Source of the DNA: Methanosarcinaceae archaeon
GTDB lineage: Archaea; Halobacteriota; Methanosarcinia; Methanosarcinales; Methanosarcinaceae
Reading direction: 5' to 3'
Assembly (NCBI GenBank): GCA_030611265.1
Contig: JAUWQD010000003.1
Location: forward strand, 62,001-126,000
DNA length: 64,000 nucleotides
Shown in pieces: positions 2 to 47,990 of this stretch (position 1 is its first letter; each line of letters starts with the position of its first letter). Made by a program: the position numbers and the translations under genes. The notes beneath the pieces were generated by a model. It had not been told where the DNA came from. It ran no database searches and was given only the letters and a program-made list of their open reading frames with translations.

Positions 2-463
2 TCATGGAATGAAGAGCGTCTGGAAGAATATGCCAAACAGTTGGTAACTGGGGAGAACGTGCAGGATTTTGAATACACCTACGGGCAGCGTCTTCGCAAC
101 TGGGATGACAAGGTTGACCAGATCGCTTATGTCATCGAAAAACTAAAAGACAGCAAAACAACCCGCCGCGCGACTGCGGTCACGTGGGTTCCAACAACCG
201 ACACGGTTGTAGATGAAGTCCCGTGTATGATAATCGATGACTTCAAAATTCGTGAAGGGAAAGTACACCTGACTACACTGTTCAGGAGCCATGATTTCGC
301 GGGAGCGTATCCTGCGAATCTTTATGGTTTGTCAAAACTGCTCGAATATGTCGCGGAAAAAGTCGGTGTGCCGGCTGGAAAGATAACAACCGTCAGCGTT
401 TCTGCACACATCTATGACCACGACTGGGACAAGATCGAGGACATCATAAAAGGGGTTCAGTAA
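2..463 (+). CDS. thyA: Thymidylate synthase, archaeal type (3' part; 5' end outside window)
   Basis: This is the C-terminal part of an archaeal-type thymidylate synthase, which methylates dUMP to dTMP. The reading frame is open from base 2, so the gene begins before the window. Visible motifs are the catalytic-cysteine segment VPCMIIDDF and the dUMP-binding segment RSHDFAGAYPANLYGL, followed by an archaeal C-terminus. In methanogens this family is believed to use tetrahydromethanopterin-type C1 carriers rather than folate; that is family knowledge, not visible here. The stop lies 3 nt before the aroA start, so the two genes are probably co-transcribed. Confidence 0.85.
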   Translation, partial: SWNEERLEEYAKQLVTGENVQDFEYTYGQRLRNWDDKVDQIAYVIEKLKDSKTTRRATAVTWVPTTDTVVDEVPCMIIDDFKIREGKVHLTTLFRSHDFAGAYPANLYGLSKLLEYVAEKVGVPAGKITTVSVSAHIYDHDWDKIEDIIKGVQ

Positions 464-42565: not shown

Positions 42566-43753
42566 ATGAAAGAAATGGATATTGAACTTGAACTTGCATA
42601 TGTACCAGATGTGCCGCACCTTGCTTCTATGCGAAATGTAAGTGGGCTGAAATGGAATAATGGCCTTGTCGGAATAACGGCTACAGACATTTGGTTGCCT
42701 ACCGATGAGGGATTTGAGATAGTCCCCCTGAAATCCATTGAAGTTGTTGGACATGAGATGCCTAAATATATAGTCAACCAGATATATGAAATTACCAAGC
42801 ACAAAGATGTATTGGCAATTGATTATAAAAAAAAATCTGTTTTCAGTTCCGCATTCGTATCTTACACCATGTTATTTGCAGGAGACTCCAAGAATATTGC
42901 GAAATTATCAAATCATCTCATATCTCTAATTGGTTTTAAAGTTGATGCGACTTTTGCAGATCTAAAACCGGATGAGTCACGCCTATTATGTTTGATCGCA
43001 GCAGGAATGGATGACTTCAGTATGCTAAATCCAATATTCGATAATAATAAAGAAAAGTTAAATCATGCATTTATGGTGCTGAAGAAAAAAGGGTTGGTCG
43101 ATGACTATGCCTCCACAACTCAACTTGGTTTTGAATATGTGGAACAGATAAAAGGCAAAGAAGGCGGGGTTATTGGCAGTAATGAAAAGGAATCTGAGGG
43201 CGATTATTCAGAGGAATCTGCTTATATCACCAATACCGACCCAACAAAAAAAATGAACAAATACTTATGGGAATATAAGGAATCATCAATTGACGGACTT
43301 GTTGCCACAAGTGAATTATTACAATGCATCCCAATTGACGATGTTGACGGAGTGGAAATTGAAGATGTGAAATTGGGGACAAAATGCTTGCAGATCCATA
43401 CCAAACATGATGCCCACATTTACATAGAGCCGGAGGACAAATCAACAATATTCACTTTACGTGTTGCGTTGAATAAAAATGAAGACCCGCAACTTCGTAT
43501 TTTATGTTCAATGTATTTGGGCGTAGTAAAACCGGATGAACTTGCGCACATTGTTAATATGCCCGCATCTCTCATTGAATACAAACTGGACTATCTTAAA
43601 GAAAAAGGATACATCCATTCAAACAATAAATTGTCATCCAAAGGCACGGAATTAATTCAGGACATAACATATACAAAAAAAAGTGACGACAAATCGTCAG
43701 AATTCCCGAGCTTATTGGAAAGTATCGTGGATTTCCATGATCCATCGAAATGA
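42566..43753 (+). CDS. CheF-like protein, copy 1
   Basis: A 395-residue protein with two similar halves, each a PH-like beta domain followed by a winged helix. First half: LKWNNGLVGITATDIWLPTD and IVPLKSIEVVGHEMP, then MDDFSMLNPIFDNNKEKLNH. Second half: SELLQCIPIDDVDGVEIEDV, then YLGVVKPDELAHIVNMPASL. This architecture resembles archaeal CheF, which links CheY to the archaellum motor. It is paralogous to 44724-45875; the KaiC-like ATPase gene lies between the two. No other chemotaxis gene is seen. The CheF assignment is tentative. Confidence 0.5.
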   Translation: MKEMDIELELAYVPDVPHLASMRNVSGLKWNNGLVGITATDIWLPTDEGFEIVPLKSIEVVGHEMPKYIVNQIYEITKHKDVLAIDYKKKSVFSSAFVSYTMLFAGDSKNIAKLSNHLISLIGFKVDATFADLKPDESRLLCLIAAGMDDFSMLNPIFDNNKEKLNHAFMVLKKKGLVDDYASTTQLGFEYVEQIKGKEGGVIGSNEKESEGDYSEESAYITNTDPTKKMNKYLWEYKESSIDGLVATSELLQCIPIDDVDGVEIEDVKLGTKCLQIHTKHDAHIYIEPEDKSTIFTLRVALNKNEDPQLRILCSMYLGVVKPDELAHIVNMPASLIEYKLDYLKEKGYIHSNNKLSSKGTELIQDITYTKKSDDKSSEFPSLLESIVDFHDPSK

Positions 43754-43822
43754 ACTGAAAACACTACAAACGATGAATTTATGAATAATTGATTGTCATT
43801 TTGCACCATCGCGTTTTACAAG

Positions 43823-44527
43823 TCAATCAAATATCTGCCCTTCGATGACCTCAATACCATGATCGCCTATCCTGAATATGTGAGGTCTCATACTGTGTTT
43901 GGTTGCCCTCATCTTTCGCACACGCAAATATCTCAAAGCATCGTTTTGGTTCAACTTCATACCAAGTTCGATCAAACCATCTGCAATATATCCTTCCATG
44001 CCAGTCGTTTGCGCATTCTCACCTATACAATCGTGTTTTCCCAAAATAATAAATGAGGTTATGCCTTCTCTTCGTATATATTCAAACAATTGGTATGTCT
44101 CTCTCCTTAGTTCATGCGGCGCAGTAAACATTAACGAATACATTGCACCCAGCGAATCAAGAGCGATTGTGGAGAATTTATCGCCGAATCTTTTCTTATA
44201 CATTTCAACTGTTTTTGCAATGAAGTCAATTATATCTATTTTTTCATCACTATAATCCATACGGTAATCGCTTATATCAGCGATCATAAGATTCTTGGAT
44301 GATTTTATACCCATAGATTCCATGTTTTCAACGTGACTTTGTTTGCTTTGTTCAAGTATTATATACAGACCAAACTCACCCGATTGCTCAAGATAGTTCG
44401 ACATCAGAGAATATGTGAAACCGGATTTCACAGTGCCCTCACCGCCTGTAATTATAACAACACTTTTTTTTGGTATGTCAGTATCAAATACTTGATTAAG
44501 TCCATCAATAGAATCTATAAATCTCAT
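43823..44527 (-). CDS. KaiC/ArlH-like RecA-fold ATPase
   Basis: A 234-residue single-domain protein of the KaiC/Rad55 group, the size of the archaellum ATPase ArlH. The P-loop is GGEGTVKSG (residues 28-36): the glycine before the lysine is replaced by valine, so classical ATP binding may be altered. Walker B is STIALDSLG near residue 120, and a later HELRRETYQLFEYIRREG segment is typical of the group. It lies on the opposite strand between the two CheF-like genes. Confidence 0.72.
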   Translation of the reverse strand: MRFIDSIDGLNQVFDTDIPKKSVVIITGGEGTVKSGFTYSLMSNYLEQSGEFGLYIILEQSKQSHVENMESMGIKSSKNLMIADISDYRMDYSDEKIDIIDFIAKTVEMYKKRFGDKFSTIALDSLGAMYSLMFTAPHELRRETYQLFEYIRREGITSFIILGKHDCIGENAQTTGMEGYIADGLIELGMKLNQNDALRYLRVRKMRATKHSMRPHIFRIGDHGIEVIEGQIFD

Positions 44528-44723
44528 TATTTTTTGTCACCCATATGCTTAAAGCACACTATGACTTTATAAACTTTATTATTCAAGACTTGATACACAC
44601 ATCTAATCTACAATTTGTTTATGCTTAATATTGTATATATGTTTGTTTGGTGTTGTTTATAATACATGAATACAATAAGTATATTGTTTCAAATCAATAC
44701 CATTTTTTGAAAAAAATTGGGGC

Positions 44724-45875
44724 TTGTCAGTGGAACATATTGATGACATAGAAAAAGAAGATAATAAATTTGATCTGTCATACGTACTTGACGTGTCAAA
44801 GGTTCTCTCTGATAAAAGTTCTGTCGACATAGAATGGTTAAAGGGAGTAATAGAGATTGCAAATGATAAAATGTGGATACCGGACGATTCCGGATGGGAA
44901 ATAATTCCACTTAGTTCAATTGAATTGATTGGACGTAAAATGCCGGCTTCAGTTGAAACCCAACTCATGCATGCTACAAAATATTCTAATTTTTTAGTTA
45001 TTGACCACATAAAAAAATCAATGTTTAGCGGAAGTCACCTGACAGTTACTACGGTATTTGGAGGAACTGCGGCAGACATCAGACAATTTAAGAATTATCT
45101 TTTAGAATTACTTGGGTTTAGCGCCAGTGGAACTGGTGAAGAACTGGAGTCTGAAGAAATCCGTTTGTTATGCCTGATTGAATTCGGGGTGAAAGATGTT
45201 GATGTGTTGCTCCCGATATTTGACAGTAACCAGATACTGTTGAACCATGCATTCAAAGTTTTGAAAAATAAAGAATATGTTGATGACAATGCGAACATTA
45301 CACCACAAGGATTGGAGTATGTAGAAAACATAAAAAGTCAGGCCGGGGAAAAACTTGGAAAAGATGTCAACACGGCATTTGAAAGCGTTACACGCCATTG
45401 GAAACATGCACGTAACGCCAAACAAACAAAACCAATGAACAAAGTTGTCTGGAAAAAAGAGCACTCAGCCCTGTTAGGAAAAGTGTCTACTGAAGCATTA
45501 TGGCAGTACATACCAATAAAAGACATTAAGGATATTAAAATTGAGGAGAATGATGTAGGAAACCTACATTTGTATATTAGAACAAAGACCGGAATATGCA
45601 TTGATGTTGAACCTCTGGAAAAATCAATTGGTTTTGCACTTTATGGGATGCTGGACAAGAGTGAAGACATGCGTTTTCGCATAATAGATTCAATGTATTT
45701 AGGAATTGTAGATCACAATATTGCTGCACATGTGCTTGGGATTGAACTCCCCGTCATTGAACAAGACATAAAAAGTATGGTGGAAGATGATTTGATCGAT
45801 CCAGACAATAACATACTGCCAATGGGTATGAATGTGGTGAGAGATAATTTCATGCGTTACAACATCAGTGAATAG
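44724..45875 (+). CDS. CheF-like protein, copy 2
   Basis: A 383-residue paralogue of the protein at 42566. Corresponding segments are IEWLKGVIEIANDKMWIPDD, IIPLSSIELIGRKMPASVE and VKDVDVLLPIFDSNQILLNH in the first half, and WQYIPIKDIKDIKIEEN and MYLGIVDHNIAAHVLGIELP in the second. The start may be TTG at 44724 or GTG at 44730; GGGGCT just upstream favours the GTG. No membrane segment is present. It is followed by a partial copy of the MITE-like element of 22851. Confidence 0.5.
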   Translation: MSVEHIDDIEKEDNKFDLSYVLDVSKVLSDKSSVDIEWLKGVIEIANDKMWIPDDSGWEIIPLSSIELIGRKMPASVETQLMHATKYSNFLVIDHIKKSMFSGSHLTVTTVFGGTAADIRQFKNYLLELLGFSASGTGEELESEEIRLLCLIEFGVKDVDVLLPIFDSNQILLNHAFKVLKNKEYVDDNANITPQGLEYVENIKSQAGEKLGKDVNTAFESVTRHWKHARNAKQTKPMNKVVWKKEHSALLGKVSTEALWQYIPIKDIKDIKIEENDVGNLHLYIRTKTGICIDVEPLEKSIGFALYGMLDKSEDMRFRIIDSMYLGIVDHNIAAHVLGIELPVIEQDIKSMVEDDLIDPDNNILPMGMNVVRDNFMRYNISE

Positions 45876-47249: not shown

Positions 47250-47990
47250 TTAAAACTGGGTATGTCCAAGTGCTATTGCTGCGACCAATATGGCACCGAC
47301 CTCTTTTAATTTTTGTCTGCCAGCATTCAACGAATTTCCTCTCGTTGCCACATCATCAAGTAGTAAAACTTGTTTACCTTTGATTATTTTCTCATTAACA
47401 ATATTAAGAGAATCGAGTTCTTGTTCCAGACTACGCCTTTGATTTGACGTGTGATTTGGTTCCATAGTTCTATTTCTTATTATTACATTTGTCCCATCAA
47501 TTATAGGAAGTTGACACAATCGCATTGCCACTGTTCTTATCCCCGAATCTGCAAGTCCCTTTTCACTACTTGGAATTACACAGATCACATATTCTTCATT
47601 GTCATTGAGAATATCACGTAGTTTATTTGTAAAATATTCAATTGCATCGGGTTTCTGCTTTTTAACATTAAGAATTTGATTTGAGAATTGATCGAAATTT
47701 GGATTTGTCCCCTTCCTCCATGGATGATATTTACCCAATGTTTGATTTGAATTCAAAGCTCTTGTATATTTTCCAGATTCACGAAATATTCGGTAATGAG
47801 ATGATATTGGTATCTCAGGCATAATAATGTTGCTTGGTGAATAATGCCTACAATCATTACATCGATAAGGGTATATTCCTAATTTATCACGCCGCACCCC
47901 ACATCCATATACACCATCACCTCGATTTTTATCATTTTGATTTGATGTGAAATGGTTGCCAGGCAACTTTAAATATTTACATTTATACAT
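47250..47990 (-). CDS. PRTase-fold protein, ShosT-like toxin candidate
   Basis: A 246-residue protein. Its C-terminal half has a type I phosphoribosyltransferase fold with the PRPP loop LLLDDVATRGNSL near residues 210-222 and VICVIPSSEKG. The N-terminal 60 residues contain spaced cysteines (YGCG, YRCNDCRHY) that could bind zinc. ComF-like proteins share this layout. It is followed 18 nt later by the DprA-like gene. The order PRTase-DprA and the composition, AT-richer than hel308, suggest a mobile defence module. Confidence 0.7.
   Translation of the reverse strand: MYKCKYLKLPGNHFTSNQNDKNRGDGVYGCGVRRDKLGIYPYRCNDCRHYSPSNIIMPEIPISSHYRIFRESGKYTRALNSNQTLGKYHPWRKGTNPNFDQFSNQILNVKKQKPDAIEYFTNKLRDILNDNEEYVICVIPSSEKGLADSGIRTVAMRLCQLPIIDGTNVIIRNRTMEPNHTSNQRRSLEQELDSLNIVNEKIIKGKQVLLLDDVATRGNSLNAGRQKLKEVGAILVAAIALGHTQF

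Follow-up and report, generated by a model that had tools for sequence, protein, structure and literature searches.

Two CheF-related tandem proteins flanking a KaiC-family ATPase in a Methanosarcinaceae genome: a probable KaiC-hub signalling module

The closest described relative of the two proteins considered here is CheF, an archaea-specific adaptor. Its C-terminal domain (CTD) binds CheY-P, the ArlCDE switch is the proposed docking site of its PH domains, and a long strand at the wing of the CTD forms the dimer interface (PMC9126983); CheF acts on a motor complex that contains ArlH (PMC8978795). A second point of reference is the concept of archaeal KaiC-like signal hubs (PMC5847659, PMC4858521), for which REC-PAS-PAS-DUF835 is a listed architecture and DUF835 is regarded as a KaiC domain that has lost its activity (PMC5847659). 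We analysed a locus in which a KaiC-family ATPase gene lies between two CheF-related genes and compared it with both systems.

The window, a 64,000-nucleotide stretch of a Methanosarcinaceae archaeon genome (G000), carries genes A, K and B in that order (Table 1). We use CF2 for a CheF-related protein composed of two tandem (PH-like + winged-helix) units; A and B are both CF2 proteins. The first-pass annotation had described two proteins of about 390 residues with a RecA-fold ATPase between them on the other strand, and all three open reading frames are in place. Genes A and K converge, with ~70 bp between them, while B diverges from K across an intergenic region in which the promoters of both K and B presumably lie. 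As K is on the strand opposite to A and B, the three genes do not form one operon in the window. The left flank consists of thiC and a flavodoxin gene and the right flank of dprA, a phosphoribosyltransferase gene and an archaeal helicase gene; no che or arl gene is found among these tested neighbours, in agreement with the earlier reading. The archaellins and the sole CheW of the window genome are on other contigs (C46, C18 and C93), as are arlH and arlI (C18), and profile search of this genome gave no CheF-arch match. A partial CheW-like protein with ~50 matching residues (L206:16302-16739), without a che set nearby, is perhaps a relic of chemotaxis in the window genus.

Table 1. Features of the A-K-B locus, with genes and spacer in window positions and domains of A in residues (AF2, AlphaFold2).
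Feature	Position	Strand	Length	Basis or remark
Gene A, CheF-related tandem protein, putative adaptor (CF2)	42566..43753	+	395 aa	ATG start (ORF list)
Gene K, KaiC-family ATPase	43823..44527	-	234 aa	ATG start (PF06745, KaiC structures, conserved residues)
Gene B, second CF2 paralogue	44724..45875	+	383 aa	TTG start
K/B divergent intergenic region	44528..44723		196 bp	Gene coordinates, spacing
A unit 1	PH-like ~1-128, winged helix ~130-198			AF2 secondary structure, unit comparisons
A linker	~199-226			Disordered in AF2 models (about 197-227)
A unit 2	PH-like ~226-304, winged helix ~305-376			AF2 secondary structure, unit comparisons

AlphaFold2 was run with 11 and with 33 sequences, giving mean pLDDT values of 72 and 75 and pTM values of 0.43 and 0.41, respectively; the individual domain folds of these models are usable, and the relative domain placement is not. 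Both models consist of strands, a helix and a three-helix winged domain, followed by a disordered linker and then by the same elements again. Winged helix 1 matches winged helix 2 in profile alignment (hhalign P 2e-7); between the PH-like halves, divergence is too great for a profile match (P 0.08). Foldseek against the PDB returned single PH domains and, along the whole chain, the tandem-PH proteins Spt16 and Rtt106. The repeated architecture first read from the sequence is thus borne out. Foldseek by itself placed no CheF among the 50 matches listed; a search of the fold against viral models returned nothing significant. Residues 319-380 of A match the wHTH model PF24409 (27.1 against a cut-off of 27). 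This model carries "PRTase" in its name, which could be tied to the phosphoribosyltransferase encoded at 47253-47990; we rejected the connection as coincidence, because 30 of the 33 family members match the model in other gene contexts.

Neither A nor B matches Pfam CheF-arch up to E=1; direct Pfam and NCBIfam searches returned only the borderline wHTH, and a PDB sequence search with the A/B profiles returned no CheF. The connection is found through relatives. An iterated search from A recruits the CheF proteins of related genomes, which are themselves found independently with the Pfam model; CheF-arch is matched at E<0.05 by 12 of the 33 family members, and CF2 proteins from three genomes with the triad gene order described below score 27.3-28.4 bits, above the cut-off of 25. 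In hhalign comparisons with the PH2+CTD portion of CheF, unit 1 gave P 3e-8 and a group of single-unit relatives P 2e-12, against P 0.06 or worse for 15 unrelated control families. The single-unit profile also recovers true CheF in other families, with E values to 1e-11, and its two best PDB matches are the CheF entries 7ovp and 7od9 (E 0.08 and 0.21). At the level of profiles, common ancestry of A/B and CheF is supported. The CheF link, originally a judgement from pattern, stands as a family relation. A and B are not CheF orthologues; genomes G098 and G106 each contain a triad CF2 and, in a che cluster, a true CheF as well, so CF2 and CheF are distinct. In alignments with CheF, the CF2 units are ~5 residues shorter at the wing that carries the CheF dimer strand, which suggests that the tandem unit may stand in for the CheF homodimer.

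K matches PF06745 (E 1.2e-34; 120.1 bits against a cut-off of 26.6), and its best solved relatives are KaiC proteins. Conserved residues in K include Lys34 and Ser35 of the Walker-A-like GGEGTVKS, the candidate catalytic Glu59, the Walker B Asp124 and the K205-M206-R207 finger. Across the KaiC family of the triads, Leu or Val takes the place of the third Walker A Gly (GxxGxGK[ST]); this replacement would make nucleotide binding and ring formation likelier than fast turnover, and catalysis by K is, from its motifs, uncertain. The initial description of K as ArlH-like is correct in size and in the RecA fold, but K belongs with KaiC: it scores 35.6 bits against NCBIfam ArlH, for which the cut-off is 215, while the true ArlH of the window genome (L208) scores 270 bits and is encoded in the arl cluster on contig C18. 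We therefore rejected K as ArlH. In the KaiC tree, the CF2-linked copies, K among them, group with KaiC from two genomes of another family that encode DUF835, a histidine kinase, a receiver and KaiC (98/97). This grouping with DUF835-linked copies without CF2 suggests that the DUF835-KaiC pair is the older and that CF2 joined it later, although long branches make the placement unsure.

A and B are paralogues, with 38% identity over 362 gap-free residues (E 9e-84). The exact A-K-B trio is present in three of the seven genomes of the window genus (G000, the window genome, G002 and G003); no A-like gene was found in the remaining four, and G001 and G005 have archaellins and lack the trio. A, K and B are all under purifying selection, with dN/dS values of 0.16-0.28 over the three genomes, and this conservation indicates that all three are real genes. 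Within the genus the tree of A mirrors that of B, and the two lineages meet only at a point outside it, which places the duplication before the separation of these species.

Elsewhere in the window genome, on contig C42, is a third CF2 paralogue that is 43% identical to A (L076:4613-13810, L158:6183-7639) and sits downstream of large unannotated proteins; the same region encodes a DUF835-like protein that scores below threshold and two KaiC-like proteins, one of which is a double KaiC of 492 aa. The A-K-B locus of G003 adjoins the same unannotated proteins (L078:1945-6867), unlike those of G000 and G002, which have thiC/flavodoxin on their left; rearrangement of the locus has thus taken place within the genus.

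Seventeen genomes of other Methanosarcinaceae genera (g3, g4 and g8, of which g4 is Methanolobus; the window's own genus is outside this count) have regulator, CF2 and KaiC genes in this order on one strand. One CF2 gene is positioned directly upstream of, and co-directional with, a K orthologue that is 46-53% identical to K, and most of the CF2-KaiC gaps are -20 to 100 bp. Upstream of CF2, a PAS-DUF835 protein is encoded in 16 of the 17 triads; only REC-PAS-PAS is readable in the other (G100). A receiver domain (REC) is present in 11 triads, once as a separate gene, and aligned examples retain the phospho-acceptor Asp. Six Methanolobus regulators have PAS domains only, where tested, with no signal for a cryptic receiver in the N-terminus, and so receiver binding is not the constant job of CF2. 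Inputs differ by lineage (REC-PAS, PAS only or none nearby), and the constant feature is CF2 with KaiC. Exact conservation of the trio is accordingly a matter of the window genus, while the CF2-KaiC pairing with a DUF835 sensor extends to these 17 genomes; a relation to CheF and conserved gene order in relatives, the lack of which would have refuted the first-pass proposal, have both been found.

No pair of components is obligatory: four loci combine REC-PAS-DUF835 and KaiC without CF2, and a second CF2 clade, mostly from g4, has no adjacent KaiC gene (L143-L150, L152-L156, L075). Some members of that clade adjoin receiver/kinase genes (L144, L146, L156) or a vWA protein gene (L143). The A-K-B locus has no DUF835 regulator, and the window genome has no DUF835 above cut-off and a single match below it; comparison of DUF835 with K by hhalign, from shallow alignments, gave no signal (P 0.16), so the view of DUF835 as an inactive KaiC is taken from PMC5847659. 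Interrupted CF2 genes, with an in-frame stop in G026 and a split copy in G100 (L067:7750-8937; L157:6554-7680), are signs of recent module decay.

All CF2 and single-unit proteins that we found belong to Methanosarcinaceae; matches of the single-unit profile outside the family coincide with CheF loci where checked, and within it genera g7 and g11 are devoid of both, except for one weak g7 match. The single-unit relatives are ~195 aa long, and in 10 of 12 loci a KaiC gene lies three genes downstream, which brings to three the settings of this analysis in which PH + winged-helix units and KaiC ATPases occur together. One conserved cluster (L081:624-14876; also L079, L080, L090-L096) encodes, besides a single-unit CheF relative and a 360-aa KaiC ATPase, a pair of archaellins, two histone-deacetylase-family proteins, acetyltransferases, a V4R protein, a long coiled-coil protein and an Sm-like protein, and possibly serves acetylation-linked control of an archaellum-like filament.

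We consider A-K-B to be, with moderate confidence, a degenerate-input version of the Methanosarcinaceae KaiC-hub signalling module, with CF2 as a protein-protein adaptor. K would be expected to form rings and to switch states by ATP binding, hydrolysis or autophosphorylation. A and B would each contribute two PH-like + winged-helix units per chain, perhaps replacing the CheF homodimer, and their PH faces and winged helices are predicted to be protein-binding surfaces that dock a sensor or receiver protein and a target onto the KaiC ring. Sister genera encode the (REC-)PAS-DUF835 sensor next door, and the window genus has lost it from the locus and carries the putative adaptor twice. Physical interaction, signal direction and ring formation are the parts of the model that we infer. 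We regard the proposal of a stand-alone signalling module away from che and arl genes as supported.

A transcription switch had been the other half of that proposal: A and B would be DNA-binding regulators, with tandem winged helices on operators and K modulating them as an ATPase. The at-cut-off match of an A winged helix to PF24409, weak similarity to HTH_5 and to the CRISPR Csa3 wHTH, and the divergence of K and B over 196 bp, a common set-up for autoregulation, are all consistent with such a role. We nevertheless judge it unlikely and do not favour it, as the winged helices are acidic or near neutral (net charge -2 and -1 in A, -8 and -9 in B; total pI ~5) and the CheF CTD, the nearest homologue among domains of known role, binds CheY-P (PMC9126983); the prevalence of DUF835 proteins and receivers in the triads also argues against it. 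The same charge pattern and CheF counterpart make a protein-protein adaptor the likeliest mechanism for CF2, by analogy.

Slightly less probable than DNA binding is that A or B serves the genus as its functional CheF and couples a signal to ArlCDE/ArlH, the switch of the archaellum, K being an ArlH-like accessory factor. CheF homology, the clustering of single-unit relatives with archaellins and a KaiC ATPase, and a window genome that has archaellins and arlH/arlI (C46, C18) without a CheF-arch match would fit this role; yet triad CF2 occurs beside true CheF in two genomes, the genus has one partial CheW only and no che set was found in it, and the trio lies far from the arl genes and is missing from two archaellin-bearing genomes. 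It is very improbable that the three genes are unlinked neighbours, CF2 having duplicated to either side of a KaiC gene unrelated to it, with no functional meaning in their adjacency. Restriction of the trio to fewer than half of the genomes of its genus, in orientations unlike the operons of other genera, could be read in that way, but the co-directional K orthologues that immediately follow CF2 in 17 genomes outside the genus and the purifying selection on A, K and B both speak against it.

The conserved CheF-related neighbour provides a KaiC hub with a concrete, testable partner and takes the CheF family beyond chemotaxis. We found no description of the CF2-KaiC pairing in the literature, the KaiC survey of 2017 (Makarova et al.) lying outside the scope of this search. 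The CF2-KaiC-sensor pairing suggests a little-known signalling line without a connection to chemotaxis, and the full triad is present in a named Methanolobus strain, making bench testing feasible. CF2 would also suggest an origin for CheF. As a wider and more doubtful idea, which we put forward tentatively, CheF may be one branch of a larger PH + winged-helix adaptor family that shares a KaiC-family ring as partner, which would be ArlH in the archaellum and a KaiC paralogue in other systems. In systems unrelated to chemotaxis, the ring would then be acted on by a sensor or receiver via the adaptor, and chemotaxis would have taken over an older line.

Compared with CheF (PF04283 CheF-arch, arCOG02394, 7OVP), A and B likewise have a PH-like fold that leads into a C-terminal helical/winged-helix domain, with unit 1 aligning to PH2+CTD, and an adaptor role is plausible for them too, by analogy. 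The domain order is PH1-PH2-CTD in CheF and PH-wH-PH-wH within a single chain in A/B; CheF homodimerizes via the long CTD strand, whereas the A/B wing is shorter by about 5 residues; and CheF is encoded with che/arl genes, whereas A and B are beside K and CF2 elsewhere occurs with KaiC and DUF835. K is like ArlH in its RecA/KaiC fold, its length of about 230 aa and its place in a system with a CheF homologue, and differs in its sub-threshold profile score and in the separate presence of a true ArlH in the arl cluster. With cyanobacterial KaiC, which has KaiB/SasA-type partners, K shares the ATPase family, the K-M-R finger and the Walker B Asp, but K is a single KaiC domain with an altered Walker A and no KaiB-like partner at the locus. 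K and the sister-genus regulators fit the concept of KaiC signal hubs linked to (REC-)PAS-DUF835 proteins (Galperin et al. 2018, PMC5847659), with two departures: the window genus lacks the DUF835 partner, and the text of PMC5847659 makes no mention of any CheF-related adaptor placed between the regulator and KaiC.
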